DNA from: Segetibacter sp.
Lineage (GTDB): Bacteria; Bacteroidota; Bacteroidia; Chitinophagales; Chitinophagaceae
DNA: 56,666 nt
Assembly (NCBI GenBank): GCA_028288485.1
Contig: JAQBNO010000103.1
Span: 1-56,666 of the forward strand
Reading direction: 5' to 3'
This document shows, one piece after another, positions 690 to 27,944 of this stretch (its first letter is position 1; the number at the start of each line of letters is the position of its first letter). The notes beneath the pieces are model-generated. The model did no database searches, had not been told where the DNA came from, and saw nothing but the letters and a program-made list of their open reading frames with translations. A program made the position numbers and the translations under genes.

Positions 690-1667
690 ATGAATACTGT
701 AAACTGGCAAGGCGTATATCCCGCATTGCTCACGCCTTTTACTAGCAACGATTGCATTGATTTTACATTGTTTGAAAAAAATCTTAATACCGGGATTGAA
801 GCCGGTATAGATGCAGCGGTTCTTTGCGGCTCACTTGGGGAAGCAAGTACGTTAACTGCCGAAGAAAAGCAAAACTTACTTTGTTGTGCCAATGAAGTAG
901 CAAATGATAGAATTCCTGTGATCATTAATATTGCAGAACAGGCAACAAAAGAAGCAGTAAAAGCAGCCGAAAATGCTGAAAAGTATGGCGCCAATGGCTT
1001 AATGCTTTTACCCCCTATGCGATATAAAGCAGACGAAAGAGAAACCGTAATGTATTTCAAAACGATCGCCGCAAGCACTTCATTGCCCATCATGCTTTAC
1101 AACAATCCCTATGATTACAAAATAGAAGTTACTTTAGATATGCTTGAGCAACTTTCTGAAATTCCAACGATCCAGGCAGTAAAGGAATCTACAAGAGATG
1201 TAACGAATGTAACAAGGATAAAAAACAAATTTGGCGACAGGTTTAAAATACTTTGTGGCGTCGATACCCTTGCCTTCGAAGAGCTTGCATTAGGTGCCGA
1301 TGGCTGGGTAGGTGGACTCGTTGATGCTTTTCCCGCAGAAACAGTTGCCATCTATCGGTTAATGAAAGGGGGATATTATAACGAGGCCTTAAAAATATAT
1401 CGATGGTTTTTACCCTTGCTCGAACTCGACATTCACCCTAAACTCGTGCAATATATTAAGCTGGCTGCAACGCAAACAGGTTTAAGCAGTGAATATGTAA
1501 GGGCACCCCGTTTAGCAATAGAAGGAGTTGAAAGAGAAAAGGTGCTTGCAACAGTTAATCATGCTATCAATACAAGACCTTGTCTGCCCAACTATTTGCA
1601 GTTGGAAGTCCTGCAAAACGACGTAAGATTATCATTGGATGCAACAAGAAAACCATTACATGTGTGA
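690..1667 (+). CDS. DapA-family lyase, likely 1-pyrroline-4-hydroxy-2-carboxylate deaminase
   Basis: 325-aa class I aldolase-type TIM barrel of the dihydrodipicolinate synthase family. The Schiff-base lysine is K165 in IQAVKES, the conserved tyrosine is Y137 in MLYNNP, and the substrate-carboxylate loop reads GSLGEAST (47-54). In the family, members next to hydroxyproline epimerase and a D-hydroxyproline oxidoreductase deaminate 1-pyrroline-4-hydroxy-2-carboxylate to 2-oxoglutarate semialdehyde. The two following genes are exactly these, so this role is inferred rather than dapA or N-acetylneuraminate lyase. Cytoplasmic, no signal peptide. Family proteins usually end near residue 300; here about 25 extra residues follow NTRP, as if an older stop was lost. 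First gene of a three-gene set. Confidence 0.85.
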   Translation: MNTVNWQGVYPALLTPFTSNDCIDFTLFEKNLNTGIEAGIDAAVLCGSLGEASTLTAEEKQNLLCCANEVANDRIPVIINIAEQATKEAVKAAENAEKYGANGLMLLPPMRYKADERETVMYFKTIAASTSLPIMLYNNPYDYKIEVTLDMLEQLSEIPTIQAVKESTRDVTNVTRIKNKFGDRFKILCGVDTLAFEELALGADGWVGGLVDAFPAETVAIYRLMKGGYYNEALKIYRWFLPLLELDIHPKLVQYIKLAATQTGLSSEYVRAPRLAIEGVEREKVLATVNHAINTRPCLPNYLQLEVLQNDVRLSLDATRKPLHV

Positions 1668-1744
1668 CAAATAACATTACCAATATTCGTTGCAGTAATA
1701 TATTTTTTTTTGAGGCCGGCATAAGAACAGGTAGCCAGCTTTAC

Positions 1745-1850
1745 TTGCGTCGCACTCTTGTACGGCAGGAAGTAGCCCGAAGTAAAAAGCACCATACACG
1801 TTGGGCTTTTTCTGCCCAACATCCTGATGCTGTACAAGTGAGTGACACAA
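1745..1850. repeat. Interspersed repeat element 1 (inverted ends)
   Basis: Left end TTGCGTCGCACTCTTGTAC (1745-1763) and right end GTACAAGTGAGTGACACAA (1832-1850) face each other as imperfect inverted repeats, 106 bp overall. The interior has a perfect 7-bp hairpin, GTTGGGC/GCCCAAC, at 1800-1820. The element lies between the deaminase and epimerase genes. Overlapping open frames here are by-products of the repeat. Confidence 0.8.
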
Positions 1851-1955
1851 CGATGTTTAATTAATAACCAATGCCTGTTACCAAAAAAGGCTTCTTAAAG
1901 AAAGTATGTTAACTCGAAAGTCTCTTCCCCATTCATTTTTGCTATTCACATAATT

Positions 1956-2960
1956 ATGGCTTCAAAAAAATTCTTTTGTATAGATGCGCATACCTGTGGC
2001 AACCCGGTAAGATTAGTCGCAGGAGGTGGTCCTTTTTTGCGGGGAAATAATATGAGCGAGAAACGCCAGCATTTTTTAAAAGAGTATGACTGGATACGCA
2101 AGGGACTGATGTTTGAGCCCCGCGGACATGACATGATGAGTGGAAGTATTTTATATCCGCCACACGATGCTGCCAATGATGTAGCAGTATTATTTATAGA
2201 AACCAGCGGTTGTTTGCCTATGTGCGGGCATGGAACAATAGGTACCATTACCATTGCTATTGAAGAAGGTTTGATAACGCCAAAAAACCCTGGTGTGGTA
2301 CGAATGGAAGCACCCGCAGGTTTGGTTTTAATAACTTATACGCAACACGGAAATAAAGTAAAAAGTGTAAAGCTTGTAAATGTTCCTGCATTTTTAGAAG
2401 CCGAAGGTGTAACGGCGGAATGTCCTGAGCTAGGTGAACTGGTAGTTGACGTTTCTTACGGGGGTAATTATTATGCAATTGTAGATGTTCAAAAGAACTT
2501 TAAAGGATTAGAGCATTATACCGCAGATAAATTAATATCATGGGCAAGAGAGCTGCGTAAAAACATCAACGAAAAGTATTATTTCGAACATCCTGACGAT
2601 CCTACCATACATGGCTGTTCTCATATACTTTGGGCAGGTGCTGTGTTAGATGAAACTTCCACTGCCCGCAATGCTGTTTTTTATGGTGACAAAGCCATTG
2701 ACCGCAGCCCTTGCGGCACCGGTACGTCGGCCCGGATGGCACAATGGCATGCAAAAGGCAAACTAAGAAAAGGAGATGCTTTTATACATGAAAGTATTAT
2801 CGGCTCTAAGTTTATTGGTACTATTGAAGAAGAAACAACAGTAGCCGGTAAAACGGCCATTAGACCCGGTATTGAAGGTTGGGCGAGAATTTTTGGCTAT
2901 AACACTATCAGCATAGATGAGGAGGATGATCCGTATGCATTCGGGTTTCAGGTGATATAG
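1956..2960 (+). CDS. 4-hydroxyproline 2-epimerase (proline racemase family)
   Basis: 334 aa, full length for the proline racemase superfamily. Both catalytic cysteines are present: C90 in PMCGHGTIG and C253 in DRSPCGTGTS. Having two Cys distinguishes racemases/epimerases from the trans-3-hydroxyproline dehydratases, which have Thr at the second site. Converts trans-4-hydroxy-L-proline to cis-4-hydroxy-D-proline in the cytoplasm. The next gene, 35 nt downstream, encodes a D-amino-acid dehydrogenase, which supports epimerase over proline racemase. The ATG at 1956 opens directly into the conserved FFCIDAHTCGNPVR block, so the start is well fixed. Confidence 0.9.
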   Translation: MASKKFFCIDAHTCGNPVRLVAGGGPFLRGNNMSEKRQHFLKEYDWIRKGLMFEPRGHDMMSGSILYPPHDAANDVAVLFIETSGCLPMCGHGTIGTITIAIEEGLITPKNPGVVRMEAPAGLVLITYTQHGNKVKSVKLVNVPAFLEAEGVTAECPELGELVVDVSYGGNYYAIVDVQKNFKGLEHYTADKLISWARELRKNINEKYYFEHPDDPTIHGCSHILWAGAVLDETSTARNAVFYGDKAIDRSPCGTGTSARMAQWHAKGKLRKGDAFIHESIIGSKFIGTIEEETTVAGKTAIRPGIEGWARIFGYNTISIDEEDDPYAFGFQVI

Positions 2961-2995
2961 AGGGAAGTGGTAAGTTTAAGTATAAGAAGTAATAC

Positions 2996-4240
2996 ATGAA
3001 AGCAGTTATTATAGGCGGAGGAATTATTGGTTTATGTTCGGCATACTATCTTAATAAAAGCGGGTGGAATGTTACGGTAATAGACAAAACAGATCTAACC
3101 GATAGCTGCTCTTTTGGTAATCTTGGCATGATCGTACCCAGTCATTTTGTTCCTTTGGCAGCTCCCGGTATGATTGCCCAGGGTATTCGCTGGATGTTTG
3201 ATAGTAAAAGTCCCTTTTATGTCCGCCCTTCGTTAAGCACCGATTGGATCTCGTGGGGGTTAAAATTCATGAAAAGCGCTACCCCAAAGCATGTGGAAGA
3301 ATCTGCTGCTTATCTGCTTGACATAAATCTTTTGAGCAAACAATTATACGAGGACCTCGCTACTGAGCCAGGGTTTGATTTTGCTTTGGAAAAGAAGGGG
3401 ATTCTGATGTATTATAAAACAGAAAAAGTAGGAGAAGAGGAAATTCATCTGGGTGAGAGGGCCAGAAAAATGGGCCTCGATGTAGTATCGCTGTCGCAAA
3501 AAGAAGTGCAGGCTTTAGAGCCTGGTATAGAATTAAATGTTTTGGGTGCAGTGCATTACCGCTGCGACGCACACCTTCATCCCAATCAACTGATCCCACA
3601 ACTAATTAACCATTTGGGTAAATCGGGTGTTGCTTTCCAAAAAAACAGGTCGGTGGTTGCAATAGAAAAAGAAGGTAATAAAATAAAAAAAGTGATAACA
3701 ACTGCGGGTGAGTTTGACGCAGATATCGTGGTAATGGCAGGAGGATCATGGCTTCCGCATTTGACTAAATTGGCAGGTGTTCCAATTTCTTTAATGCCTG
3801 GCAAGGGATATTCCTTCACCTTAGATAAGCCGAATAAAAGACTACATATTCCGGCCATTCTTTGCGAAGCCCGTGTTGCTATAACACCCATGAATGGAAA
3901 AATGCGATACGGTGGAACAATGGAAATAGGACCGGTAAACAGCCGGATTAGTATGAATCGTGTGCGGGGGATTGTAGAGTCTGTAGGAAAATATTTTACG
4001 GACATCAATTTAAAAATGCCTGTAGAAAAAGACGTTTGGTACGGTTTCAGGCCTTGTACGCCGGACGGCTTACCATACATCGGTTATTCAAAAAAGGTAA
4101 GTAATCTTTTGATTGCCGGGGGCCATGCGATGAGCGGACTCAGTCTTGGGCCTGCAACGGGAAAAATAATAGCTGAGTTAGCAAACGGGCAACCAACGTC
4201 AGTAAAGATCGATGCTTTCGCTATTGAGAGGTTTTCCTGA
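2996..4240 (+). CDS. FAD-dependent D-amino-acid dehydrogenase, likely D-hydroxyproline dehydrogenase
   Basis: 414-aa DAO/DadA-type flavoprotein. The N-terminus has the Rossmann dinucleotide-binding motif IIGGGIIG (6-13) followed by an acidic residue after the second strand (VIDK). The C-terminal block GFRPCTPDGLPYIG and GGHAMSGLSLGPATG is the usual FAD/substrate signature of DadA-like enzymes. The inferred reaction is oxidation of cis-4-hydroxy-D-proline to 1-pyrroline-4-hydroxy-2-carboxylate, the substrate of the upstream deaminase; electrons probably pass to the respiratory chain, since DadA-like enzymes are not oxygen-dependent oxidases. Could alternatively act on other D-amino acids. Last gene of the plus-strand hydroxyproline set, convergent with the permease. 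Confidence 0.85.
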   Translation: MKAVIIGGGIIGLCSAYYLNKSGWNVTVIDKTDLTDSCSFGNLGMIVPSHFVPLAAPGMIAQGIRWMFDSKSPFYVRPSLSTDWISWGLKFMKSATPKHVEESAAYLLDINLLSKQLYEDLATEPGFDFALEKKGILMYYKTEKVGEEEIHLGERARKMGLDVVSLSQKEVQALEPGIELNVLGAVHYRCDAHLHPNQLIPQLINHLGKSGVAFQKNRSVVAIEKEGNKIKKVITTAGEFDADIVVMAGGSWLPHLTKLAGVPISLMPGKGYSFTLDKPNKRLHIPAILCEARVAITPMNGKMRYGGTMEIGPVNSRISMNRVRGIVESVGKYFTDINLKMPVEKDVWYGFRPCTPDGLPYIGYSKKVSNLLIAGGHAMSGLSLGPATGKIIAELANGQPTSVKIDAFAIERFS

Positions 4241-4340
4241 AAATGAGAGACCTTTTGTTATGTTTCTATTTCTCCATCTCTGCCAGGTACTTTCCGTTGT
4301 GATCTTCCTGCTTACGTTACTTCAGCTTGGGATGCGGGCT

Positions 4341-5759
4341 TTACAACGTAGCTGTAGATTTCTTTTTGCTATTCACCGCTATATAATAGATGGGCACACC
4401 TATGAGAGTGATAATTAAGCCGGGCCAGGTAAATTTTGGTTTATATACAATTAGCAAGGCGCAAAAACTAAGACCCATCAAAATATAAATTATTGGCAGA
4501 AACGGATAACCGAATGCTTTATACGGTCTTTCTACATCAGGCTGTTTTCGGCGCAGAATAAAAATTCCGACGATCGTAAGCATATAAAAGCAAACTACTA
4601 CAAAGGATATCATATCCAGCAGGTCGCCATATTTTCCACTTAAGCTCCATAGACATGCAAAGATGCACTGCACCCATAGTGCATAGGCAGGTACGCCATT
4701 TTTATTGAGTATGCCTGCCTTTTTAAAGAATAGTCCATCTTTAGCCATAGTGTAATATACTCTTGCCCCTGATAGTATCAGTCCGTTGTTGCATCCAAAG
4801 GTTGATACCATTATCATCAGTGCGATAATAATAGTACCGGCGTTTCCAAAAATAACTTCTGATGCGGCAACGCCTACCCTGTCTTTTGGAGCTGTAGCAA
4901 TATCATGCAATGGCAGTACTGCTGAGTAAACAAGATTAGTAGTTAAGTAGATAATAGTTACTATTAGTGTCCCTAAAAAAAGACTTAAACCGATATTGCG
5001 TTTTGGGTTTTTTATTTCACCCGCAATGAAAGTAACATTGTTCCATGAGTCGCTGCTAAATACTGACCCTACCATGGCTGCTGCAACTGCACCTGCAGCA
5101 GCCATGGTAGTATAACTTTCAAAACTCCCGTCAGTATTTAATTTGCGTAATGTCCATGCGCTCTGCCAGTTGTTTTGCCATACAGTTGAATCGGCGACTA
5201 AGAGTCCGATTACGATCAAAGCAAACAAACTCAGTATTTTAGTTAAGGTAAAAGTTGTTTGAATGATCTTACCACTTTTTACTCCACGTGAATTAATATA
5301 GGTAAGCAATACAATAACCACAATAGACAATAACTGAGCTGGTGATACTAAAAGAAAACCAAGATTTAGGGCTACTGTGTCCTCGCTTACCTGTGGAAAA
5401 ATGTAGGTGGTAAATTTTGCAAATGCGACGCCAACTGCGGCTATAGTCGCAGTTTGTATAACTGAAAAAAAACTCCATCCATATAAAAATCCAATAAGTG
5501 GGGTATAAGCTTCTTTCAAATAAACATATTGCCCCCCTGCCTTAGGATACATAGCACTTAATTCTCCGTAACTCAATGCAGCAGTAAGTGTCATAAAACC
5601 CGTAATAAGCCAAACGATCATTAGCCAACCGGCACTGCCGGTGTTACGGGTAATATCTGCACTTACAATAAAAATTCCGGAGCCTATCATGCTGCCCGCA
5701 ACAATCATTGTAGCATCTAGCAGACCCAATGATGGCTTAAACGAAGATGTATTACTCAT
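4341..5759 (-). CDS. APC-family amino-acid permease
   Basis: 472 aa with about twelve hydrophobic segments. The first membrane helix carries the GSMIGSGIFI substrate-binding signature of APC transporters (LAT/APA type), and the AALSYGELSAMYPKAGGQ loop follows. Inner-membrane, probably proton-coupled. Substrate cannot be read from sequence; its position between hydroxyproline genes and an AraC regulator makes proline, hydroxyproline or a small peptide-derived amino acid the best guess. Convergent with the dehydrogenase gene (100-nt gap) and divergent from the AraC gene (158-nt shared promoter region). Confidence 0.88.
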   Translation of the reverse strand: MSNTSSFKPSLGLLDATMIVAGSMIGSGIFIVSADITRNTGSAGWLMIVWLITGFMTLTAALSYGELSAMYPKAGGQYVYLKEAYTPLIGFLYGWSFFSVIQTATIAAVGVAFAKFTTYIFPQVSEDTVALNLGFLLVSPAQLLSIVVIVLLTYINSRGVKSGKIIQTTFTLTKILSLFALIVIGLLVADSTVWQNNWQSAWTLRKLNTDGSFESYTTMAAAGAVAAAMVGSVFSSDSWNNVTFIAGEIKNPKRNIGLSLFLGTLIVTIIYLTTNLVYSAVLPLHDIATAPKDRVGVAASEVIFGNAGTIIIALMIMVSTFGCNNGLILSGARVYYTMAKDGLFFKKAGILNKNGVPAYALWVQCIFACLWSLSGKYGDLLDMISFVVVCFYMLTIVGIFILRRKQPDVERPYKAFGYPFLPIIYILMGLSFCALLIVYKPKFTWPGLIITLIGVPIYYIAVNSKKKSTATL

Positions 5760-5917: not shown

Positions 5918-6817
5918 ATGAAAGTGATCCAATTTGCCCTACCTATAGTAAAAGATCATTCTATACACGTGCAGGAAGATAAACTGCCACACTTTTACGA
6001 ACATCTTCACCGTCATCATGAAATACAGATAACAATGGTAATAAGAGGCAAAGGAACACTTATTGCCGACAACGTTATGAAACCTTTTGAGCCAGGCCAT
6101 GTTTTTGTGCTCGGCGCTAATCAACCGCATTTATTTAAAAGTGATCCTGTTTATTTCAACCCTGAAAGTAAAAAAAGTGTTCACTCATTAAATATTTTTA
6201 TTAATCCCGCCGGTTTTATGACCACTCTGCTTGATTTTCCCGAAATGAGCAGTATAAAAAAATTTACTGAGTCATGTCTTAACGGAATGCAGGCTCCGGA
6301 AAATAAGCAAGAAGCAATTGCCAGTCATATTAGAAAAGTTATGGAGAATACCACAGCTTACCGGCTTTCCGCTTTTATCGAATTGATGCAGTTAATGGCC
6401 AATATGAAAGATTGGGATTATTTATCGGCCGGATCATTCGAATACGGTATAAGCGATACTGAAGGTTTACGTATGAATGATATTTACGAGTACACAATGG
6501 CAAACTATACAGAAAACATCACTCTCGAGCAGATTGCCGGAGTTGTTTATCTTACCCCTCAATCTTTTTGCCGGTATTTCAAAAAACATACGCTCAAGAC
6601 CTATACTGAGTTTCTCAATGAGGTTCGCATCAACGAAGCGTGCAAAAAGTTCAAGGGAGAGTTTCAAAGTATTTCTGCTGTTGCCTACCAAACCGGCTTC
6701 AATAATGCGGTTACTTTCAACAGGGTCTTCAGGAGTATAATGGGTAAATCTCCCAGCGAGTTCATAAAAGAGTATCATAAATATGTAGAAGCAGATAGCG
6801 ACCTACTCGTCATTTAG
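5918..6817 (+). CDS. AraC-family transcriptional regulator
   Basis: 299 aa. N-terminal cupin-like sensor (about 20-120) with HLHRHHEIQI and a GHVFVLGANQPHLF strand, and a C-terminal double helix-turn-helix (about 190-290) with ITLEQIAGVVYLTPQSFCRYFK and VAYQTGFNNAVTFNRVFR. Cytoplasmic DNA-binding protein. Its position, divergent from the permease and just after the hydroxyproline genes, suggests it controls that set and possibly the SusCD locus downstream. The ligand is not evident; hydroxyproline or an intermediate is an inference. Confidence 0.9.
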   Translation: MKVIQFALPIVKDHSIHVQEDKLPHFYEHLHRHHEIQITMVIRGKGTLIADNVMKPFEPGHVFVLGANQPHLFKSDPVYFNPESKKSVHSLNIFINPAGFMTTLLDFPEMSSIKKFTESCLNGMQAPENKQEAIASHIRKVMENTTAYRLSAFIELMQLMANMKDWDYLSAGSFEYGISDTEGLRMNDIYEYTMANYTENITLEQIAGVVYLTPQSFCRYFKKHTLKTYTEFLNEVRINEACKKFKGEFQSISAVAYQTGFNNAVTFNRVFRSIMGKSPSEFIKEYHKYVEADSDLLVI

Positions 6818-10700: not shown

Positions 10701-10990
10701 ACGCTTTGGGTAGCGTAAAAGCTCCACAGGCATACTTCATATTCGACGCATCTTATGTGAAATTAAGAGAAGTTTCATTCTCCTATAATCTGCCTACAAA
10801 ACTGCTTTCCAAAGCTAAAATAACAGCAGCGCAGTTATCGATCATCGGTTCTAACCTGTGGATCATTCATAAAAACTTGCCGTTCGCTGATCCTGAAGCA
10901 GGCGCTAGTTCGGGCAACTTACAGGGTGGCCAAACGGGTGTACTCCCAACAACCCGCGATATGGGTATCAACCTTAAACTTACATTCTAA
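7793..10990 (+). CDS. SusC/RagA-family TonB-linked outer-membrane transporter
   Basis: 1065 aa, normal SusC length. Signal peptide (about 1-18, cleavage near AEA), carboxypeptidase-D-like regulatory domain (about 22-95, VITGTVKDDQG to FVGYLTKK), then a TonB plug containing the SusC signature ending DGVPVNN and the block VLKGAAATALYGSRAANGAI, followed by a long beta-barrel that ends in phenylalanine (LKLTF). It imports ligands across the outer membrane with the SusD lipoprotein encoded 12 nt downstream. The six peptidase/amidohydrolase genes that follow suggest oligopeptides rather than glycans as cargo; no glycoside hydrolase is nearby. Confidence 0.96.
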   Translation: MQRVLLIFLFFALAKAEAQNKVITGTVKDDQGPLPDVSIAIEGSATGTRTAKDGSFRIAASPNSTLALSFVGYLTKKVTVTEKSEYSIVMTHDDKKLQDVIVTALGISREKKSLGYAAQTISGDDISTVKTGNIVNALSGKAAGVQIKRNTNMGGSTNIVIRGNKSLTGDNQALFVVDGVPVNNSNFNTSGQQSNSGGFDYGNMASDINPDDVESMTVLKGAAATALYGSRAANGAIIISTKKGAKRNKVTISVNSGVTVGSIIKSTFPTFQDKYGVGYGSVYGPNANDFFVSADIDGDGVAEYPVTPGNTYGSYGAPFDANLMVYQWDAYDPESRNNMKKTPWVAPKNGPITFFETPVTTTNNLAVAGSNDMGSYRLSYTNFYQKGLLPNGNIKRNNVAFNGIYKLTDKLTASVSGNYANTAGRGRNETGNESGGNGGNVVSVFRRYWVANVDVQELKEMYFKTGRNITGFTNGTIDNPYWTRYENQESDDRRRLFGNVGLKYNLTNWLNVEGRISLDTYTFLQEERRNNGTLPAVGRYIRNNVNFSESNYDLMVHFNKNILTDLNVSGVVGTNIRRNDYNSVYAETNGGLVLNRLFSLSNSKDLPAAPVERAEKIGVDGYYGAVSLGYNNMLYLDVTGRSDHSSMLPAENSTYFYPSVATSFIFSELIKNTALSYGKVRLNYAEVGSSGQPNTLVDVLEKPTPFGSAPLYAVSAAKRNATLLPEKTQSIEAGVEMSFFKRRIGIDFSVYKTNTKNQIMPVAVSTASGYASKWVNAGEVENKGIEVALNGTPVKTSKFSWDVTVNWANNRSKVLSLFDGVNNLQLGSVMGVTVNAAIGQPYGALMGTDFIYVNGQREINQTTGEYKRTSTSNNIIGNITPDWNGGISNRFGYKAFSLSFLVDMQKGGDIFSSDISTGNRSGLYDYTAGVNELGKPIRNSLANGGGIILEGVDASGKPNTVRTAMDNYTNALGSVKAPQAYFIFDASYVKLREVSFSYNLPTKLLSKAKITAAQLSIIGSNLWIIHKNLPFADPEAGASSGNLQGGQTGVLPTTRDMGINLKLTF

Positions 10991-18764: not shown

Positions 18765-18874
18765 CAAACCATTGGGCAGCTTTTACCATGTTCTGTTACA
18801 AAAGCAAAGTGCCTAAATCCCTTCTATGTATACATACAACTCCACCGCAAAAACAGAGCTTGTATAATTTTAAA

Positions 18875-21202
18875 ATGAAGATGAGCGTAACACAGATGAA
18901 GAGATTTTTTTTGTTTGAATTGTCCTCCAAAGCATCCTCGTTAGGTACTGTTCTTCTGTACACTTCCTTGTGTATAGCCCAGGGTACAAAAGAAGATTAC
19001 AGCAGGGCGGAGATGATAAAACAAAAGATGGAAAACAACATTTTCTATGCCCCCAAAACATTTTATTGGTTCGAAAACGAAAATAAGTTCTGGTACCTGA
19101 ACACTACCCCAAAAGGGAAAGAATTTATATTGGTTGACGTTGCCTCTAAAAGCAAAAAGCCCGCGTTCGACCAGCAAAAACTAGCAGCACGTTTAGCTTC
19201 AGTTTCCGGCAAACACGTTGAACCTTACAACTTGCCTTTCACCAGTGTTTCGTTTGTTGAAAACGGTAAAGAAATCGAATTCGAAGCGGCTGATAAAGTG
19301 TGGCGTGCCGATCTTGTTACCTACAACTGCACTCCCAAAGGCAGAGCAAATCCTGCACCATTGCCAAGGTTTGGCGAGGGCAGCGACCTCAGCAACACTC
19401 CCGTTTCATCACCCGATGGAAAATGGAATGCATTGATTAAAAATTACAACGTATATATTCAATCAGCCGGGAACAAAACAGAAGAATATCAATTAAGTTT
19501 CGACGGCTCGGAAGGCGAATATTACTCGTCAAATCTTCAGTGGGCACCAGATTCAAAAAAACTTGCCACCAACAAAGTAAGGCCCAACAAACCTCACATC
19601 ATCTATTTAATTGAATCTTCTCCTGAAGACCAGTTGCAACCCAAGCTCCATTCACGCAACTATTTAAAACCCGGTGATGCTTTGCCGCAAAGGCAACCCT
19701 CGTTGTTTATTATTAGCAGCAAAAAGCAAGCGTCCGTCGATCCTTCACTCATCAATTCTCAATACAACGTCACAAACCCCGTTTGGAGAAAAGACAGCCG
19801 CGCTTTTACATTCGAATACAACCAGCGTGGATCACAAATCTATAAAGTACTTGAGGTGGATGCAGCAGCAGGTAAACTGAAAGAACTGGTTGCCGAAGGA
19901 ACAAAGACATTCATCAACAACCGTAAAAAATACCGCTACGATGCCGACGATGGAAACGAGATCATCTGGGCATCAGAAAGAGACGGTTGGAATCATTTGT
20001 ATTTGTACGACGGCAATACCGGCAAAGTAAAAAACCAAATTACAAAAGGTGATTGGGTGGTTCGTAATGTGGTAAAAGTTGACGAAATCAACCGGACCAT
20101 TATTTTTGAAGCAAACGGGCGTGAAGCGGGACAAGATCCTTATCTCATTCAGTTATACAAGATTAATTTCGACGGTACCGGGTTACAGCCCCTCACTACC
20201 GAAAATGCAAATCACCTTACTACTTTCTCGCCTGATTATTCCTGGTTTATTGATAGTTACTCCCGTATTGATCTGCCACCTGTTATGGTAGTAAGAAGCG
20301 CTGTTGACGGCAAAGTGATCATGGAACTCGAAAAGACAGACACAAAAGAACTGCTGGCATCAGGCTGGAAAACGCCGGAAGTCTTCAACACAAAAGGCAG
20401 GGATGGAACAACAGATATCTGGGGCATCATCGTTCGTCCCAGCACTTTTAGCCCTGCAAAAAAATACCCGGTTATCGAATACATTTATGCCGGTCCTCAC
20501 AATTCCTTTGTTCCCAAAAGCTTTATCTCCGATCCGGCAGGGGGCGATTATCGTCCCTGGACAGAATTACATGAATTAGCCGAACTGGGTTTTATTGTAG
20601 TTCAAATAGATGGAATGGGTACTTCCAACCGCTCAAAAGCCTTCCACGATGTAAGCTGGAAAAACCTGAAAGACGGCGGCTTTCCCGACCGGATAAAATG
20701 GATCAACGCTGCCGCACAAAAGTACCCATACATAGATACCAGCCGGGTGGGCATCTTCGGCAACTCCGCAGGTGGACAAAATTCTGTAGCTGCCATGTTG
20801 TTTCATCCCGACTATTACAAAGTAGCGGTTTCTTCCTCTGGCTGCCATGATAATCGCATGGACAAGATTGGCTGGAACGAACAGTGGATGGGTTATCCCG
20901 TTGGTCCGCAGTATGCCGAATCTTCCAATGTTACACATGCACATAAGTTAAAAGGTCAGCTATTGCTTATTCTGGGCGAGATGGACGAAAACGTACCTCC
21001 TGAATCTACGCTGCAACTGGTAAACGCTTTGGTAAAAGCCAACAAAAAATTCGACTTTCTATTGGTGCCGGGCATGGGGCATTCCCTCGGAGGTGATTAT
21101 GGAGAACACAAACGAAGAGACTTTTTTGTAACCCATTTGTTGGGTGTACAACCACCCGAATGGGATGGACAGACCCGCCTTGCAACACGAACTGATAAGT
21201 AA
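18875..21202 (+). CDS. S9 family peptidase, dipeptidyl-peptidase IV type, exported
   Basis: About 775 aa from ATG 18875, chosen because upstream residues from 18788 are not signal-like; ATGs at 18881 and 18896 also remain possible. Signal peptide ends near LCIAQG. The N-terminal DPP-IV beta-propeller region is followed by a hydrolase domain with nucleophile GNSAGG, the acidic residue in GEMDENVP and histidine in GMGHSLGG. DPP-IV-type enzymes remove N-terminal Xaa-Pro dipeptides, matching a proline-peptide pathway. It differs clearly from the first S9 enzyme (12848), so the two have probably different cleavage preferences. Starts the second triad. Confidence 0.9.
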   Translation: MKMSVTQMKRFFLFELSSKASSLGTVLLYTSLCIAQGTKEDYSRAEMIKQKMENNIFYAPKTFYWFENENKFWYLNTTPKGKEFILVDVASKSKKPAFDQQKLAARLASVSGKHVEPYNLPFTSVSFVENGKEIEFEAADKVWRADLVTYNCTPKGRANPAPLPRFGEGSDLSNTPVSSPDGKWNALIKNYNVYIQSAGNKTEEYQLSFDGSEGEYYSSNLQWAPDSKKLATNKVRPNKPHIIYLIESSPEDQLQPKLHSRNYLKPGDALPQRQPSLFIISSKKQASVDPSLINSQYNVTNPVWRKDSRAFTFEYNQRGSQIYKVLEVDAAAGKLKELVAEGTKTFINNRKKYRYDADDGNEIIWASERDGWNHLYLYDGNTGKVKNQITKGDWVVRNVVKVDEINRTIIFEANGREAGQDPYLIQLYKINFDGTGLQPLTTENANHLTTFSPDYSWFIDSYSRIDLPPVMVVRSAVDGKVIMELEKTDTKELLASGWKTPEVFNTKGRDGTTDIWGIIVRPSTFSPAKKYPVIEYIYAGPHNSFVPKSFISDPAGGDYRPWTELHELAELGFIVVQIDGMGTSNRSKAFHDVSWKNLKDGGFPDRIKWINAAAQKYPYIDTSRVGIFGNSAGGQNSVAAMLFHPDYYKVAVSSSGCHDNRMDKIGWNEQWMGYPVGPQYAESSNVTHAHKLKGQLLLILGEMDENVPPESTLQLVNALVKANKKFDFLLVPGMGHSLGGDYGEHKRRDFFVTHLLGVQPPEWDGQTRLATRTDK

Positions 21203-21257: not shown

Positions 21258-22754
21258 ATGAAACATCCGATCAGGTTACTATTATTATGTTTAGTTCTAT
21301 CAACTTCTTCCATGGCGCAGACTTTGAAGATCAATATGGATTCTGCGGTAACTACAAGCCATGCAGTTACTATAAAAGGGCAGCGTATTGCTTATACGGT
21401 CACCGCAGGTAAACAACCGGTTTGGGATGAAAAAGGCAAACCTATTGCCGGTCTTTTTTACATCTATTACGAAAAAACAGGGGTTACTGATCGCTCAACC
21501 AGGCCATTGGTAATTTCTTTTAATGGCGGTCCCGGCGCTGCATCCTGCTGGATGCACCTCGGTTATACAGGTCCTCGCCGTTTGAATATAGATGACGAAG
21601 GTTATCCCGTGCAACCTTATGGAATAAGAGAAAACCCCAACTCTATTTTAGACGTAGCCGACATTGTTTATATTGAACCGGTTAACACAGGCTTTTCAAG
21701 AGCAGCAAATGACTCTATCCCTAAGTCGAACTTTTTTGGTGTTAATGCAGACATTAAATACCTCGCCGAATGGATCAGCACTTTTGTAAGCCGTAAAAAC
21801 CGCTGGACTTCCGCAAAATATCTTATCGGCGAAAGTTATGGAACCACCCGTGTTTCAGGGCTGGCTTTAGAACTGCAAAACAAACACTGGATGTACCTGA
21901 ACGGCGTTATACTCGTATCTCCCACCAATCTGGGTATTGTTCGTACCGGCGCTGTTTTAGCTGCTAATATGTTGCCTTATATGTCTGCCGCTGCCTGGTA
22001 TCACAAAAGACTTCCAGCCGATCTTCAACAAAAAGACCTTACTGATATGCTGCCCGAAGTTGAAAAATTTACGATCAACGAATTGCTTCCGGCTTTGTCG
22101 ATGGGTGGATTTATCGACCCGGCAAAAAGACAGCAAATGGTAGCAAAAATGGCGCGTTACTCCGGCTTGTCAGAAAAGGTAATTTCTGAACACAACCTCA
22201 ATGTGCCCGTTCAATTCTTCTGGAAAGAACTGATGCGCGATAAGGGGTATAACATCGGAAGGCTCGATTCCCGTTACCTTGGCATTGACCGCGAAACAGC
22301 AGGCGAAAGACCAAGTTATGCGGCAGAAAACACTTCGTGGCAACACTCGTTCACGCCTGCTATCAACTATTATTTAAGGGAAACTTTGGGTTATAAAACC
22401 GACCTCAGTTATTACATTGCCGGTCATACACAATCCTGGGATCGTTTGGCTGCCAACACCGACAATACTGCAGAGAACTTGCGGCAGGCAATGGCGCAAA
22501 ATCCTTACCTACACTTAATGGTTCAGTCGGGCTATTACGATGGCGCCTGCGATTATTTTAATGCGAAATTTAATATGTGGCAAATGGACCCAAGCGGTAA
22601 GCTGAAAGACAGGATGGAATGGAAAGGTTACCGCAGCGGACACATGATGTACCTGCGTACCGAAGACTTAATTACTTCTAACAACGACATCAGAAACTTT
22701 ATTAAAAAATCAACACCAAAACCAGGAGAACCTGCAAAATATGCCGTAAGGTAA
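21258..22754 (+). CDS. S10 family serine carboxypeptidase-like protein (copy 2)
   Basis: 498 aa. Signal peptide ending SSMAQ (about 1-21), FNGGPGAASCW, GESYGTT nucleophile, GACDYFN and YRSGHMMYL, the same triad and spacing as copy 1. Conserved stretches such as FFGVNADIKYLAEWI are nearly identical between the copies, showing duplication of the S10-amidohydrolase unit. Follows the DPP-IV gene by 55 nt. Unlike copy 1, it is separated from its amidohydrolase by a 455-nt repeat-filled gap, which may uncouple their expression. Confidence 0.88.
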   Translation: MKHPIRLLLLCLVLSTSSMAQTLKINMDSAVTTSHAVTIKGQRIAYTVTAGKQPVWDEKGKPIAGLFYIYYEKTGVTDRSTRPLVISFNGGPGAASCWMHLGYTGPRRLNIDDEGYPVQPYGIRENPNSILDVADIVYIEPVNTGFSRAANDSIPKSNFFGVNADIKYLAEWISTFVSRKNRWTSAKYLIGESYGTTRVSGLALELQNKHWMYLNGVILVSPTNLGIVRTGAVLAANMLPYMSAAAWYHKRLPADLQQKDLTDMLPEVEKFTINELLPALSMGGFIDPAKRQQMVAKMARYSGLSEKVISEHNLNVPVQFFWKELMRDKGYNIGRLDSRYLGIDRETAGERPSYAAENTSWQHSFTPAINYYLRETLGYKTDLSYYIAGHTQSWDRLAANTDNTAENLRQAMAQNPYLHLMVQSGYYDGACDYFNAKFNMWQMDPSGKLKDRMEWKGYRSGHMMYLRTEDLITSNNDIRNFIKKSTPKPGEPAKYAVR

Positions 22755-23209
22755 ACCTGCATTAAAATTTTTATGCACCTGGCTAAATAGTTTCAATTGA
22801 ACATCGTTGCGTCGCACACTTGTACTGTTGCAACACAATGGGACTATGGACTATAGACCATAGTTCATCATAATGGCCTATGGACAAATGGATCACAGGC
22901 TATGGATAATCAATGTGCAATACCCGATATTCAAACGTGCCCGTTACACCTGGTTCTTCCACAAAGCATTGAACATTGAAAGTTGAGCATCGAATACTAT
23001 TCTTAAGTAAATGACATTGATGGAGCACACGCTATTGACTATTGACCATTGTTCTTCATTGCTCATTTCACTTCCTGCCGTACAAGTGAGTGACACAACC
23101 GGAGTCAGATTGAAAAACTGCCGCCGGTACAATAAAAATTATCAGCTCTTGAATTATCTGGCACAGCATATTCTGCCCTCTGAAATTTCTCATATCAACA
23201 CGCAACTTT
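22755..23209. other. Repeat-filled intergenic region between S10 copy 2 and amidohydrolase copy 2
   Basis: 455 nt, no gene. Contains element 3 (22807-23098) whose interior holds degenerate micro-repeats: variants of CTATGGACTATAG near 22845-22915 and of ATTGACTATTGACCATTG near 23030-23055. Confidence 0.65.
22807..23098. repeat. Interspersed repeat element 3 (inverted ends, long interior)
   Basis: Left end TTGCGTCGCACACTTGTAC (22807-22825) and right end GTACAAGTGAGTGACACAA (23080-23098), 292 bp. Inside the right end, CTTCCTGCC mirrors the GGCAGGAAG next to the left end of element 1, so the shared module extends inward. The interior is low-complexity. Confidence 0.75.
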
Positions 23210-24805
23210 ATGAAAAGTAATTTTAGAATTACGCTCGTTTTTCTCGGTGTTTTTTTACAGTTAAATGTGTTCGGCCAAATACAAAAAGCGCCACCGCGAA
23301 AAGAAGGCGAAGGACCATGGAACCAGTTAATTATACGCGGGGTTACACTTATCAACGGAACACTTGCGCCGCCACTTGGCCCGGTTGACATTGTGGTCGA
23401 AAAAAACAGGATCGTCGCCATTCAAACTGTTGGCGCCCCGGGGCTACCGATTGATGCGGCAAAACGACCAAAACTAAAAGAAGGTGGCAAGGAATTGTAC
23501 GCAGAAGGCATGTACCTTATGCCAGGTTTTGTTGACACACACGCACATATTGGCGGCACCGCACAAGGAACTCCGGCAGAATATGTTTTTAAATTATGGA
23601 TGGGGCATGGCATTACCACTATTGTAGACCCCGGTTGCAGTAACGGGTTGGAATGGGTGCTTGACCAAAAAGCAAAGAGTAATAACAACGAAATTACCGC
23701 GCCACGTATTAAAGCATACGCCCGTTTTGGATTGGGAAGCAAAACGGCCATTGCAACACCGGAAGAAGCAAGGGAATGGGTTAGAACTAACGCAAAACAA
23801 GGTGCAGATGGTATCAAGTTTTTTGGCGCCTCGCCGGAAATAATGACGGCAGCGCTTGACGAAAACAAGAAACTTGGACTACGATCAAAAATGCACCACT
23901 CACAAACGTATGTAGGCGGATGGAATGTGCTGAACAGTGCAAAAGCCGGACTTACTGCGATGGAACACTGGTACGGTTTACCTGAAGCAATGTTTACAGA
24001 CCGTACCGTTCAAAATTACTCGCTGAACTACAACTACCAGGATGAACAGGATCGCTTTGGCGAAGCAGGCCTCTTATGGAAACAGGCTGCTCCGCCATTT
24101 TCGCCCAAGTGGAACCAGGTAATGGATACGCTGCTGGCGCTTGACTTTACCCTGTCTCCTACTTTTGTTGCCTACCTTGCCAACCGCGATCTCATGGCAA
24201 TGAGACGTGCAGAATGGCATGAAGAATATACACTGCCTTCGGTATGGGATTATTATAGTCCGACCCGTGGTTCGCACGGTTCCTACTGGTTTAGCTGGGG
24301 AACAGAACTAGAAATTCAATGGAAAGAAAATTTCCGTCTCTGGATGGCTTTTGTAAACGAATATAAAAACCGGGGCGGACGTGTTACGGTGGGTACAGAT
24401 GCAGCGTTCATCTACAACCTGTATGGTTTTGATTACCCCTTAGAAATGCAATTGTTGCGCGAGGCGGGTTTTCATCCGTTGGAAATTATTAAAGCGGCCA
24501 CATTAAACGGAGCAGAATCTTTAGGAATGGCAAAAGACATTGGAACCGTTGAAATAGGTAAACTCGCAGATTTTGTAATTACAGAAAAAAACCCACTGGA
24601 TAACTTACAAACACTGCTTGGGACAGGAGCAATAAAGCTCGCAGAAAACAACAAAGCGGTTCGCGTTGGAGGAGTGAAGTACACTATAAAAGACGGCATT
24701 ATATACGATGCTAAAAAACTGCTGGCAGATGTAAGAAAAATGGTAGCAGATGGGAAGGCAAAAACCGGCTATAAAATAATTCAGCCGGGAGTAAAGCCGT
24801 TTTAG
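23210..24805 (+). CDS. Exported amidohydrolase, prolidase-like (COG1228 type), copy 2
   Basis: 531 aa, signal peptide ending NVFGQ (about 1-22). All metal and catalytic residues of copy 1 are kept: VDTHAHIGG, ADGIKFFG lysine, MHHSQTYVGG, MEHWYGL and VGTDAAF. Similarity to the copy at 17068 is very high along the whole length, so this is a tandem paralogue. Same inferred role: hydrolysis of Xaa-Pro or related dipeptides in the periplasm. It closes the second triad and precedes the proline oxidation genes by 170 nt. Confidence 0.87.
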   Translation: MKSNFRITLVFLGVFLQLNVFGQIQKAPPRKEGEGPWNQLIIRGVTLINGTLAPPLGPVDIVVEKNRIVAIQTVGAPGLPIDAAKRPKLKEGGKELYAEGMYLMPGFVDTHAHIGGTAQGTPAEYVFKLWMGHGITTIVDPGCSNGLEWVLDQKAKSNNNEITAPRIKAYARFGLGSKTAIATPEEAREWVRTNAKQGADGIKFFGASPEIMTAALDENKKLGLRSKMHHSQTYVGGWNVLNSAKAGLTAMEHWYGLPEAMFTDRTVQNYSLNYNYQDEQDRFGEAGLLWKQAAPPFSPKWNQVMDTLLALDFTLSPTFVAYLANRDLMAMRRAEWHEEYTLPSVWDYYSPTRGSHGSYWFSWGTELEIQWKENFRLWMAFVNEYKNRGGRVTVGTDAAFIYNLYGFDYPLEMQLLREAGFHPLEIIKAATLNGAESLGMAKDIGTVEIGKLADFVITEKNPLDNLQTLLGTGAIKLAENNKAVRVGGVKYTIKDGIIYDAKKLLADVRKMVADGKAKTGYKIIQPGVKPF

Positions 24806-24975
24806 CTGTCAAGTTTCCAGCACCCAGCTTCTTTCATCTTTGCTGATAAAGTGTTTACAAACTTTTGCAAATGATGTTGAAGTAAATTCAATTTCAAGAG
24901 TGGTATCACGATTCGTTGCTTCGAACGATTTACTTTTTTCATTTTGGTTATACTTAAAAAAAACAAATATTATCT

Positions 24976-26604
24976 ATGAGCTTAGGTTACTTCAGTTATC
25001 CTATTCCGGTAAATGAACCTGTTTTAAATTACGCGCCGGGAAGCCTTGAAAGAGCTGCATTGAAACAAGCATTGGCAGAATTGGGAAAAGAAGAGATAGA
25101 CATACCCATGTACATTGGAGGAGAGGAGGTACGTACAGGTAACAAAAGATCGCTGCATCCGCCGCACGAAAAGGATAAAATTTTAGGCTATTATCATTTC
25201 GGTGATGAGCAACACGTAAAGCAAAGTATCGACGCTGCCCTTGCAGCAAGAGAAGCATGGTCAAACACAACCTGGGAAACAAGGGCTCATATTTTCTTAA
25301 AAGCCGCAGATCTCATTGCCACAAAATATCGTCCCTACGTCAACGGTACAACTATGCTGGGGCAAAGCAAAACTGCTTACCAGGCTGAGATTGACAGCGC
25401 ATGTGAATTAATAGATTTTCTACGCTTCAATGTATATTTTTTAACTGAAATATATAAGCAACAACCGATATCGGGCCCCGGTGTGCACAACCGTACAGAA
25501 TGGCGCGGACTGGAAGGTTTTGTTTTAGCTGTTACGCCTTTTAACTTCACTGCTATTGCGGGTAATCTTCCTACAAGCGCTGCTATGTGCGGAAATGTTG
25601 TTGTTTGGAAACCAGCCGATACCCAGGTTTATGCGGCGCAAATGATTATGCGCATACTTAAAGAGGCCGGTTTACCTGATGGTGTTATTAATCTTGTTTA
25701 TGTTGAAGGAGACGTTTTAGGCAATGTTTGCTTTACGCATCGTGATTTTGCCGGCATTCATTTCACAGGTTCAACGCAGGTATTCAATACTATATGGAAG
25801 ACAATAGGCGAAAACATAGGTAAGTACAAGGGATACCCGAGAATTGTAGGTGAAACAGGCGGTAAAGATTTTGTAATTGCGCATAAAAGTGCAGATGTAA
25901 ATGTTGTTGTTACTGCATTGGTACGAGGCGCTTTTGAGTACCAGGGACAAAAATGTTCTGCTGCTTCAAGAGCTTATATACCAGATAATCTTGCTGAAGA
26001 AATTAAGACAAAGCTGGTAGCAGAAATGCAAACCATAAAAATGGGAAATGTTGAAGATTTCAGCAACTTTATGGGCGCAGTGATAGACGAAAGAAGCTTT
26101 GACAAGATCAAAAGATACCTTGATAACGTTGATGATAAAAGCACCTTTATTTTGGCTGGTGGAAAATGTGACAAAACAAAGGGGTTTTTCGTAGAACCCA
26201 CAGTCATTGAAACAACCGACCCTATGTATGCTACTATGTGTGAAGAGATCTTTGGCCCGGTATTGACCATCTATGCTTACGATGCGAACAAGTTTGAGGA
26301 AACGCTTGCAATGGTAGATAGTACCTCGCCTTATGGTCTTACCGGTGCAATTATCGCCCAGGACAGGAAAGCAGTTGAAACGGCAACCCAAAAGCTCAGA
26401 CACAGCGCCGGCAATTTTTATATAAATGACAAGCCTACAGGTGCTGTTGTAGGTCAACAGCCTTTTGGCGGCGGCAGGGCAAGTGGCACAAACGATAAAG
26501 CTGGAAGTATGATAAACCTTTACCGCTGGCTCAGTGCAAGAACTATTAAAGAAACATTTAATCCTCCAACAGATTACCGGTACACATTCTTGTCGGAATC
26601 ATAA
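24976..26604 (+). CDS. pruA: 1-pyrroline-5-carboxylate / L-glutamate gamma-semialdehyde dehydrogenase
   Basis: 542-aa aldehyde dehydrogenase of the P5CDH type that resembles the mitochondrial enzymes. Nucleophile C327 in YQGQKCSAAS, general base E293 in VGETGGKD, Rossmann motif FTGSTQVF (263-270), and the P5CDH-specific N-terminal stretch PVLNYAPGS (15-23). Oxidises glutamate semialdehyde, formed from proline by the next gene, to glutamate with NAD+. Cytoplasmic. Bacteroidota encode P5CDH and proline dehydrogenase as separate proteins, as here, rather than as fused PutA. Confidence 0.93.
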   Translation: MSLGYFSYPIPVNEPVLNYAPGSLERAALKQALAELGKEEIDIPMYIGGEEVRTGNKRSLHPPHEKDKILGYYHFGDEQHVKQSIDAALAAREAWSNTTWETRAHIFLKAADLIATKYRPYVNGTTMLGQSKTAYQAEIDSACELIDFLRFNVYFLTEIYKQQPISGPGVHNRTEWRGLEGFVLAVTPFNFTAIAGNLPTSAAMCGNVVVWKPADTQVYAAQMIMRILKEAGLPDGVINLVYVEGDVLGNVCFTHRDFAGIHFTGSTQVFNTIWKTIGENIGKYKGYPRIVGETGGKDFVIAHKSADVNVVVTALVRGAFEYQGQKCSAASRAYIPDNLAEEIKTKLVAEMQTIKMGNVEDFSNFMGAVIDERSFDKIKRYLDNVDDKSTFILAGGKCDKTKGFFVEPTVIETTDPMYATMCEEIFGPVLTIYAYDANKFEETLAMVDSTSPYGLTGAIIAQDRKAVETATQKLRHSAGNFYINDKPTGAVVGQQPFGGGRASGTNDKAGSMINLYRWLSARTIKETFNPPTDYRYTFLSES

Positions 26605-26756
26605 GTCGCTCAATCTTTATTTTTCAGAGCTTATTGCTACCTGGTAAAATATCGGCCTGCGAATACTATACTATCAATTGAAAATGCATGTTAAAGCACT
26701 TACTTTTTACTCCTGAAACCTCTGCCGATATTCGTGCAAAAATTCCATGTAATTCT

Positions 26757-27944
26757 ATGAAGATCTCGTTTGACAATACCGAAAATGCGTTCGCCTATAA
26801 AGCAGACAAAGAGTTGAAGTTGGCTCGTTTTCTGTTTGCTTCTATGGGTTTTCAATGGCTAGCAGATGCAGGGGTTCGGTTAACGCCGTTTGCCATGAAA
26901 ACAGGTTTGCCTGTTTTAGGGCTGATACGTAAAACCATTTTTAAACAATTTATTGGCGGCGAAACGCTTGAAGAAACAGCCGTAGCAGGAGATGTTCTGT
27001 CGAAATTTGGTGTAGATGTTATTCTGGATTACGGGGTCGAAGGCAAAGAAGGTGAGGCTAATTTTGAACATGCAACAGAAGAATTTATAAAGGCTATTAA
27101 TTACGCTGCAGGTCGTACCAACGTTCCGTTTATTAGCATAAAAATTACCGGTTTTGCACGGTTTAAATTATTAGAAAGATTACAGCAAGTGTCGCGTTTT
27201 GGCTCAGAAATACATGACAACGAAGCGGAAATAGGCGAATGGCAACGCGTAAAAGACAGAGTGTACAGGATATGCAGTAAAGCTGCAGAAAAAAATATTG
27301 GCGTTCTGGTAGATGCTGAAGAAAGCTGGATACAGGATCCGGTGGACAGGCTGACAATAGAAATGATGGAAATCTTTAACAAAGAGAAACCGGTTGTTTA
27401 CAACACTATTCAATTATATAGGCACGACAGATTAAATTTTTTAAAGCAGTCATACCGCATAGCACAGCAACAAAACTTTATATTAGGTGTAAAGCTGGTA
27501 CGCGGCGCATACATGGAAAAAGAAAGAGCGCGTGCTGCTGCCAGGCAGGTTCTGTCGCCCATTCAACTTAACAAGCAAAGCACCGATGCTGACTACGATG
27601 CCTCCGTTGAATTTTGCATCGATAACGTAGATAACATATCCTGCATTATTGCTACCCACAATGAGAAAAGCAACCTGAAGGCAGTTGAACTAATGGAGCA
27701 GAAAGCCTTGCCTTTTCACCATCCGCATGTGCATTTTTCGCAGTTGTATGGCATGAGTGATTATATCACTTTTAACCTTGCCAAAGCCGGTATTTCAGTT
27801 AGCAAATATTTGCCCTTCGGTCCCATTACCGATGTTATCCCTTACCTGATGCGTCGTGCCCAGGAAAATAGCAGCATTAGCGGACAAACAGGAAGAGAAC
27901 TAAGCCTTATTAAAAAGGAAATAACGCGAAGAAAACAACGCTAA
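26757..27944 (+). CDS. Proline dehydrogenase
   Basis: 395 aa from ATG 26757, which starts at the conserved MKISFDNTE block; the open frame reaches back to 26688 but those residues look unrelated. TIM-barrel FAD enzyme with the proline dehydrogenase hallmarks LVRGAYMEKER, KYLPFGP and PYLMRRAQEN (the RRxxEN substrate motif). Oxidises L-proline to 1-pyrroline-5-carboxylate, passing electrons to quinone at the inner membrane. Follows P5CDH by about 150 nt, completing proline to glutamate. Its stop overlaps by four bases the end of an SDR remnant on the opposite strand. Confidence 0.93.
   Translation: MKISFDNTENAFAYKADKELKLARFLFASMGFQWLADAGVRLTPFAMKTGLPVLGLIRKTIFKQFIGGETLEETAVAGDVLSKFGVDVILDYGVEGKEGEANFEHATEEFIKAINYAAGRTNVPFISIKITGFARFKLLERLQQVSRFGSEIHDNEAEIGEWQRVKDRVYRICSKAAEKNIGVLVDAEESWIQDPVDRLTIEMMEIFNKEKPVVYNTIQLYRHDRLNFLKQSYRIAQQQNFILGVKLVRGAYMEKERARAAARQVLSPIQLNKQSTDADYDASVEFCIDNVDNISCIIATHNEKSNLKAVELMEQKALPFHHPHVHFSQLYGMSDYITFNLAKAGISVSKYLPFGPITDVIPYLMRRAQENSSISGQTGRELSLIKKEITRRKQR

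Follow-up and report, generated by a model that had tools for sequence, protein, structure and literature searches.

SusCD-type polysaccharide utilization loci are substrate-specific uptake units in which a SusC/SusD pair, a regulator and exported hydrolases are encoded in a row, and SusCD loci have been described chiefly for feeding on sugars. For hydroxyproline (Hyp)-rich proteins and their sugars, the accessible parts of the respective papers describe a ~21 kb collagen-utilization cluster of the gammaproteobacterium Colwellia BB5, postulated from metagenomic sequence (PMC7883544), Latescibacteria predicted to degrade Hyp-rich glycoproteins with GH127-family enzymes (PMC4454575), and HypBA enzymes of Bifidobacterium longum that act on Hyp-linked arabinosides (PMC7263609). 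The locus considered here occupies positions 690 to 27944 of a 56,666-nucleotide stretch of Segetibacter sp. (hereafter the window), which is the entire contig JAQBNO010000103.1 (C36) of its genome (G000). An initial annotation had proposed that this single locus imports proline- and Hyp-rich peptides and degrades them completely. Gene-order comparison instead indicates two recurrent modules, side by side in this strain, and not one conserved locus; judged from sequence, the whole is nevertheless probably a composite locus for feeding on proline- and Hyp-rich peptides.

The first module joins S10 serine carboxypeptidases and amidohydrolases to proline catabolism. A scan with the first window amidohydrolase (AHa) gave the 80 best loci from named genomes, taken with up to 10 kb on each side and encoding amidohydrolases ~69–79% identical; these were compared by BLAST with the window proteins, so that the scores cover only gene families of the window, and 79 were counted after L070, whose amidohydrolase was missed by the open reading frame (ORF) caller, was dropped. 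Eighteen loci encode S10 at ≥60% identity, and these contain proline dehydrogenase (ProDH; 12 loci), P5C dehydrogenase (P5CDH; 5), either of the two (13), SusC (13), SusD (13) and AraC-family regulators (3 at ≥30% identity; Dyadobacter 49%, Pontibacter 48%). The 61 loci below the cut-off, which include L030 (no ProDH; S10 50–54%, SusC 32%) and two loci whose S10 is 33% identical, contain no ProDH, P5CDH or AraC, with SusC in four and SusD in one. For ProDH or P5CDH (13/18 versus 0/61) this corresponds to a Fisher p of 3e-11, though the rows are related and represent about two to three independent cases. The modules with either gene belong to Dyadobacter, Larkinella (where ProDH sits beside P5CDH, just outside the fetched stretch), Maribacter, Flagellimonas/Muricauda/Allomuricauda, an Algicola bin and a Flavobacteriaceae bin, and S10-amidohydrolase modules as such recur in Flavobacteriia, Cytophagia and Sphingobacteriia (classes looked up for six genera). 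SusC and SusD of the Flavobacteriia modules are 61–63% and 56–61% identical to those of the window, with SusC reaching only 24–33% in the amidohydrolase modules of Dyadobacter, Larkinella, Pontibacter and Parapedobacter. Because the SusCD pair differs between lineages, S10, amidohydrolase and ProDH appear to be the constant parts of the module.

The S10 gene by itself was rejected as the carrier of the whole locus on the basis of its neighbourhoods in other genomes. S10 matches occur in 15 other genomes, 12 of which were read (eight at 54–73% identity, four at 37–40%), and in none of the 12, two of which (G032 and G051) offer short contigs, does a window-type SusCD pair or amidohydrolase adjoin S10; in G015, a weakly S9-like gene (27%) does.

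Copy number and ancestry of ProDH provide further evidence on this module. ProDH is present in all 29 genomes searched, of which G161 and G231 are identical in position and apparently represent one assembly. The Segetibacter genome has two copies, one in the window and one on contig C1, together with a second P5CDH copy (88% identical) on contig C161. Two ProDH copies are also found in G226–G229, G232–G234 and G236 and three in G235; a single copy occurs in each of the S10-module genomes G109, G225, G230, G237, G238 and G239, and in 9/10 named amidohydrolase genomes without the S10 module. In a tree of 24 ProDH proteins, nine module copies fall at three places, and well-supported branches force at least three label changes. 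Five Flavobacteriia module copies group together, the Dyadobacter and Larkinella copies lie inside a larger set holding Chitinophagaceae copies, and the window copy is sister to the C1 copy of its own genome (support 100/99). We read this as proline catabolism having probably been recruited repeatedly to the same peptidase module.

The second module is centred on Hyp catabolism. Matches to the 4-hydroxyproline 2-epimerase (HypE) occur in 94 of 195 Chitinophagaceae genomes, and 40 of the 94 neighbourhoods were fetched, with genes counted within 9.5 kb of HypE and each family identified by Pfam from a single representative. These 40 contain DAO (34), DHDPS (33) and KGSADH (29) genes, the GH127 family (18), AraC at ≥30% identity (16), SusC (7), DUF885 (7), SusD (5), APC permeases at ≥55% identity (5), aldose epimerase (5), GH51 (4), M24B aminopeptidase P (3), S9 (2), GH27 (2) and DUF5695 (2). 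The DAO and DHDPS families, candidates for D-Hyp dehydrogenase and Pyr4H2C deaminase, adjoin the epimerase in the window as they do in most HypE neighbourhoods, neither protein reaching an equivalog model. Fourteen Hyp clusters in other genomes, reached through the named amidohydrolase loci, have a similar composition: DHDPS (14), KGSADH (12), DAO (11), AraC (11, at 30–42%), DUF885 (9), SusC (6) and GH127 (5). With appended numbers denoting percentage identity, the order is DHDPS-KGSADH-HypE-DAO-S9b53-GH127 in G234, G235 and G236, accompanied by DUF5695 and DUF885 (three DUF885 genes lying on the other side of the cluster in G236), and DHDPS-KGSADH-HypE-DAO-DUF885-APC76/77 in Dyadobacter G226 and G228.

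Two domain families of these clusters deserve separate mention. DUF885 recurs in both sets (7/40 and 9/14) and beside SusCD or APC genes (L129, L134, L142, L149, L162, L163, L179, L183, L185, L186, L222 and others), which suggests a possible peptidase role for this uncharacterized family. DUF5695 neighbours GH127 and S9b in Hyp clusters of Flavobacteriia and in two of the Chitinophagaceae clusters (L145, L147, L185, L186, L191, L192 and L224).

Homologues of the second window S9 peptidase (S9b) and of the APC permease connect the two modules in part. A search of 22 genomes found S9b matches in 16 at E≤1e-60, and in G223, G230, G234, G235 and G236 the sole such homologue sits in the Hyp cluster. 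S9b homologues at 54% lie inside four Flavobacteriia Hyp clusters, one of the four homologues in G109 is in its Hyp cluster (49%) and the best (70%) in its SusCD locus, and the best match in G003 is ~11 kb from an amidohydrolase. Two Dyadobacter Hyp clusters encode APC homologues at 76–77%. In Parapedobacter, window-like SusCD is combined with S9b, APC and DUF885 in two genomes, one of which adds S10: Parapedobacter koreensis (G238) has the row SusC57-SusD53-S10b66-S9b65-SusD57-SusC59-S9b61-APC68-DUF885, its SusCD-S10-S9b-APC genes lying 44–54 kb from HypE, and P. luteus (G239) has DUF885-APC66-DUF885-SusC51-SusD54-DUF885, with S9b60 further on. The Hyp and S10/ProDH modules are separate in every other genome examined, with the exception that in G139 an amidohydrolase (68%) directly follows DAO, ~10 kb from HypE, with SusCD, DUF885 and APC (74%) in the same stretch. 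The initially proposed link to proline and Hyp is partly supported, in a modular form: in at least two classes the S10, amidohydrolase and SusCD genes are tied to proline catabolism, and some Hyp clusters contain homologues of S9b, APC and AraC.

As a mechanism, SusCD would take oligopeptides across the outer membrane; exported S9 peptidases may trim di- or tripeptides from the N-terminus at proline, S10 carboxypeptidases would trim the C-terminus and the amidohydrolases would split leftover Xaa-Pro-type dipeptides. The APC permease would then carry proline and Hyp into the cytoplasm, where ProDH and P5CDH would convert proline to glutamate, and the epimerase, D-Hyp dehydrogenase and deaminase would convert Hyp to alpha-ketoglutarate semialdehyde, to be finished by a KGSADH encoded outside the window. 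More tentatively, the Bacteroidota may possess undescribed modular proline-peptide loci (SusCD, S10, amidohydrolase and recruited ProDH/P5CDH) and partner Hyp-glycopeptide loci (Hyp catabolism, S9b, GH127 and DUF885) for plant or algal Hyp-rich glycoproteins; the window would then be a rare case in which both are joined, perhaps controlled by a single AraC regulator.

S203, D438 and H472 are invariant in 16 aligned S10 sequences and are assigned by motif as the presumed Ser-Asp-His triad; H114, H116, K206, H232, H233, H256 and D400 are invariant in 16 aligned amidohydrolase sequences, and we take this His/Lys/Asp set to be metal-binding. The predicted amidohydrolase structure (mean predicted local distance difference test score 72) has its closest fold in 2qs8, an Xaa-Pro dipeptidase, in a list that also holds 3n2c (a prolidase), 3be7 and 3mtw; these predicted fold matches leave the specificity undecided, and the two amidohydrolases score weakly against the Xaa-Pro dipeptidase model NF051886 (77 and 67 bits, cut-off 500). 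The best solved-structure match is btDPP4 for S9a and 2d5l for S9b (1.2e-53; also 2eep), titled putative dipeptidyl aminopeptidase IV in the database; we take 2d5l and 2eep to be the Porphyromonas gingivalis prolyl tripeptidyl peptidase. Identity is 75% over 481 aa between S10a and S10b and 79% between AHa and AHb, but only 24% over 447 aa between S9a and S9b. A tandem duplication of the S9-S10-amidohydrolase trio was accordingly rejected for S9, with S10 and amidohydrolase forming paralogous pairs. S10b is closer to the copy in G109 (85%) than to S10a.

The SusCD-peptidase block is rare in the family. SusD matches at E≤1e-120 occur in 6/394 Chitinophagaceae genomes and exceed 60% identity only in the Segetibacter genome and G109, a member of another genus, and these two carry the peptidases beside SusD. 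The four homologues at 46–49% (G133, G288, G023 and G144) have no adjoining locus peptidase and were rejected as further members. None of eight same-genus genomes is among the SusD matches listed, and an S10 match is found in none of nine. The G109 order, SusC75-SusD69-S9a71-AH80-S9b70-S10b85, also differs from that of the window, and conservation of one locus across relatives, as initially envisaged, is not borne out. G+C content at third codon positions is 0.42–0.46 from SusC to AHb and 0.34–0.39 for the Hyp genes, APC, AraC, P5CDH and ProDH; this difference is consistent with a block of separate origin lying between the Hyp cluster and duplicated host genes. We infer that three components with distinct histories make up the locus: the Hyp cluster, a SusCD-peptidase block with relatives in distant classes, and ProDH/P5CDH duplicates that arose within the lineage.

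Whether these parts act together has to be weighed against two rival explanations. A chance association, in which an operon for Hyp, a SusCD-peptidase locus of general function and duplicated ProDH and P5CDH genes are neighbours with no joint function, would account for the full arrangement (Hyp, SusCD-peptidase and ProDH/P5CDH) being seen only in this window, for the separation of the Hyp and S10/ProDH modules in the other genomes read and for the unlike base composition. It is nonetheless improbable, given that ProDH/P5CDH adjoins S10-amidohydrolase in several lineages with differing ProDH ancestry, that AraC-family genes stand beside both kinds of module (16/40 Hyp, 3/18 S10-amidohydrolase) and that Parapedobacter unites APC and S9b with SusCD and S10. 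General oligopeptide feeding, with SusCD and the peptidases serving many peptides and proline being one product among others, appears somewhat unlikely: S10 and S9 are broad families, relatives also carry solitary S10 homologues, and the nearest amidohydrolase folds include the arginine/lysine carboxypeptidases 3be7 and 3mtw, but proline's genes are those that recur with the S10 module among the amino acid catabolic genes scored (the window's own families only), and the nearest matches of both S9 proteins are DPP-IV-type enzymes.

Several observations weigh against a composite proline/Hyp locus. S10, ProDH, P5CDH and amidohydrolase are each absent from all 40 Chitinophagaceae HypE neighbourhoods (amidohydrolase within 9.5 kb) and from all 14 Hyp clusters in other genomes, and only 4/14 of the latter contain S9b and 2/14 APC. 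The best S9b match adjoins neither module within 20 kb in G226, G228 and G232, lies with GH127, DUF5695 and AraC far from HypE in G229, and is on a different contig from HypE in G022 (42%) and G139 (39%). The SusCD locus of G109 has no Hyp or ProDH/P5CDH genes in the 34 kb read, and the Sinomicrobium, Pontibacter and Parapedobacter modules have no adjoining ProDH/P5CDH in the stretches read. The Cytophagia modules carry another, distantly related SusCD pair, kinship of species inflates the neighbourhood counts, and the ProDH tree could formally reflect a single gain with two losses; in Pontibacter ruber (G241), three ProDH copies occur without an S10 module. Since 61/79 amidohydrolase genes lack a close S10 (e.g. 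L027–L029, L048, L062 and L089; within L026–L099), this enzyme probably has another or wider role. S9 enzymes usually have Tyr after the Ser, and the GNSAGG motif of S9b departs from this. Finally, KGSADH, the last Hyp step, is absent from the window; candidates lie on contigs C86 (61%) and C54 (49%), with no adjoining Hyp genes in the stretches read, and the complete degradation initially proposed would need such a KGSADH encoded elsewhere.

Regarding the natural substrate, GH127-family genes in the Hyp clusters of relatives make Hyp-rich glycoproteins of plants or algae a better candidate than collagen. A plant or green-algal glycoprotein of the extensin type, with its sugars removed by arabinofuranosidases encoded elsewhere in the genome, is a possible though tentative assignment. 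GH127-family genes (PF07944) occur in 18/40 Chitinophagaceae Hyp clusters versus 0/80 amidohydrolase loci, in 5/14 clusters of other genomes and in seven copies in the Segetibacter genome itself, and the available text on Bifidobacterium places the GH127 enzyme HypBA1 in a Hyp-arabinoside system (PMC7263609). On the other hand, the locus itself lacks a glycosidase, none of the seven genes lies beside Hyp genes in the 2.9–4.2 kb stretches examined, and PF07944 spans both GH127 and GH146, with other activities such as 3,6-anhydro-galactosidase and aceric acid hydrolase reported for the GH127 family in the excerpted source (PMC5698469). Collagen or gelatin would be an alternative: collagen is rich in proline and Hyp, and the Colwellia cluster, as far as its available description goes, follows similar logic (PMC7883544). 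This substrate is however highly doubtful: GH127-family genes (18/40) and GH51 genes (4/40) in relatives' Hyp clusters are not expected for collagen, none of the 15 locus proteins matches the M9 collagenase family by Pfam as a cluster of the Colwellia type would, and M9 has no match in the Segetibacter genome or 21 others, a weak point as control genomes gave no match either. The GH127-bearing Hyp clusters, which sometimes also contain GH51, GH27 or aldose epimerase, are in themselves candidate utilization clusters for plant Hyp-glycoproteins (L128, L129, L131, L132, L133, L135, L136, L137, L141, L145, L146, L148, L152, L154, L155, L156, L164 and L167).

Gene calls combine ORFs with Pfam and NCBIfam profile matches on the window proteins, and all 15 genes (15/15) named by the initial annotation were recovered in place between 690 and 27944. 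Signal peptides and the lipoprotein signal were judged by eye from N-termini.

Features of the proline/Hyp locus in the window, with the profile evidence for each.
Feature	Coordinates	Strand	Evidence
DHDPS-family protein	690-1667	+	Pfam DHDPS; 190.8 bits, below DapA cut-off of 206
4-Hydroxyproline 2-epimerase (HypE, Hyp step 1)	1956-2960	+	NCBIfam equivalog PRK13971, 587 bits (cut-off 376)
Candidate FAD-dependent D-hydroxyproline dehydrogenase (Hyp step 2)	2996-4240	+	Pfam DAO; below every NCBIfam cut-off shown
APC amino acid permease, putative inner-membrane Hyp/Pro uptake	4341-5759	-	Pfam AA_permease_2
AraC-family regulator	5918-6817	+	Pfam HTH_18
SusC TonB-dependent transporter	7793-10990	+	TIGR04056, 583 bits
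SusD-like_2 protein, lipoprotein signal (by eye)	11003-12427	+	Pfam SusD-like_2
S9a, DPP-IV-type peptidase, signal peptide (by eye)	12848-15247	+	Pfam DPPIV_N and S9
S10a serine carboxypeptidase, signal peptide (by eye)	15502-17037	+	Pfam S10
AHa metal-dependent amidohydrolase, prolidase-like fold, signal peptide (by eye)	17068-18699	+	Pfam Amidohydro_1
S9b, DPP-IV/prolyl-tripeptidyl-peptidase-like, start codon uncertain	18788-21202	+	Pfam DPPIV_N and S9
S10b carboxypeptidase, S10a paralogue, signal peptide (by eye)	21258-22754	+	Pfam S10
AHb amidohydrolase, AHa paralogue, signal peptide (by eye)	23210-24805	+	Pfam amidohydrolase
L-glutamate-gamma-semialdehyde (P5C) dehydrogenase (P5CDH), extra copy	24976-26604	+	TIGR01236, 771 bits (cut-off 614)
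Proline dehydrogenase (ProDH), extra copy	26688-27944	+	Pfam Pro_dh

The ten genes from SusC to ProDH are all on the forward strand with intergenic gaps of 12 to 455 bases, and 975 bases separate AraC from SusC. SusC and SusD are adjacent and followed in the same direction by hydrolases that, from N-termini judged by eye, are probably exported, as in a SusCD-type utilization locus; none of the 15 locus proteins matches a glycosidase family by Pfam, such carbohydrate-active enzymes being the mark of a SusCD polysaccharide locus. The locus probably ends near 27.9 kb, because tRNA-Cys, a nucleoside-phosphorylase-family protein, DapF, CorA and NUDIX come next 3' of ProDH. Further along, a sodium:solute symporter (34601-36346) and a PIG-L deacetylase domain protein of 881 aa (36967-39612) are encoded on the reverse strand. 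An interspersed repeat with inverted ends (GTTGTGTCACTCACTTGTAC / GTACAAGTGAGTGACACAAC) has window copies at 1745-1851, 12575-12681 and 22807-23099 and single ends near 391, 32797, 36668, 39822, 51566 and 51708. It looks like a miniature inverted-repeat transposable element or a repetitive extragenic palindromic element, occurring in all nine genus members searched, the Segetibacter genome included (9/9; 1 to 693 copies), and in 0/4 genomes of other families; with 431 copies in the Segetibacter genome (≤1 mismatch), this intergenic sequence was rejected as a regulator site.

A repeatable signature of proline/Hyp peptide feeding may help to predict turnover of extensins, collagen and other structural proteins by particular Bacteroidota, and would offer candidate functions, open to test, for exported S10 peptidases and amidohydrolases. 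Clusters of Hyp and GH127 genes would likewise tie the breakdown of sugar and protein in plant cell-wall glycoproteins together in one organism.

Relative to SusCD polysaccharide utilization loci, the window has peptidases and amino acid catabolism in place of glycosidases. We know of no link between RagAB of Porphyromonas gingivalis and proline/Hyp catabolic genes. RagAB resembles the window in being a SusCD-type pair, implicated in protein uptake in the excerpted account (PMC11817032). The Bifidobacterium longum and Xanthomonas Hyp-arabinoside systems use enzymes of the GH127 type against Hyp-linked arabinosides, an activity also suggested for the clusters of relatives, but differ in taking the sugar, with no Hyp catabolism or SusCD described in the available portions of the sources (PMC7263609, PMC6085000). 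The view that no such system had been described needs qualification: among the matches listed in open-licence PMC literature there is no Bacteroidota system with this gene set, but a comparable proposal has been published for Colwellia BB5, on partial text the nearest analogue found (PMC7883544). That cluster differs in having its own M9 collagenase, peptidyl-prolyl isomerases and proline dipeptidase, in including KGSADH, which the window lacks, and in having its P5CDH elsewhere; SusD, S9, S10 and amidohydrolase are not named for it in the accessible part of the paper (PMC7883544). It shares with the window the bringing together of peptidases, a TonB-dependent receptor, a transporter, Hyp epimerase, D-Hyp dehydrogenase, deaminase and proline utilization genes (PMC7883544, same portion).

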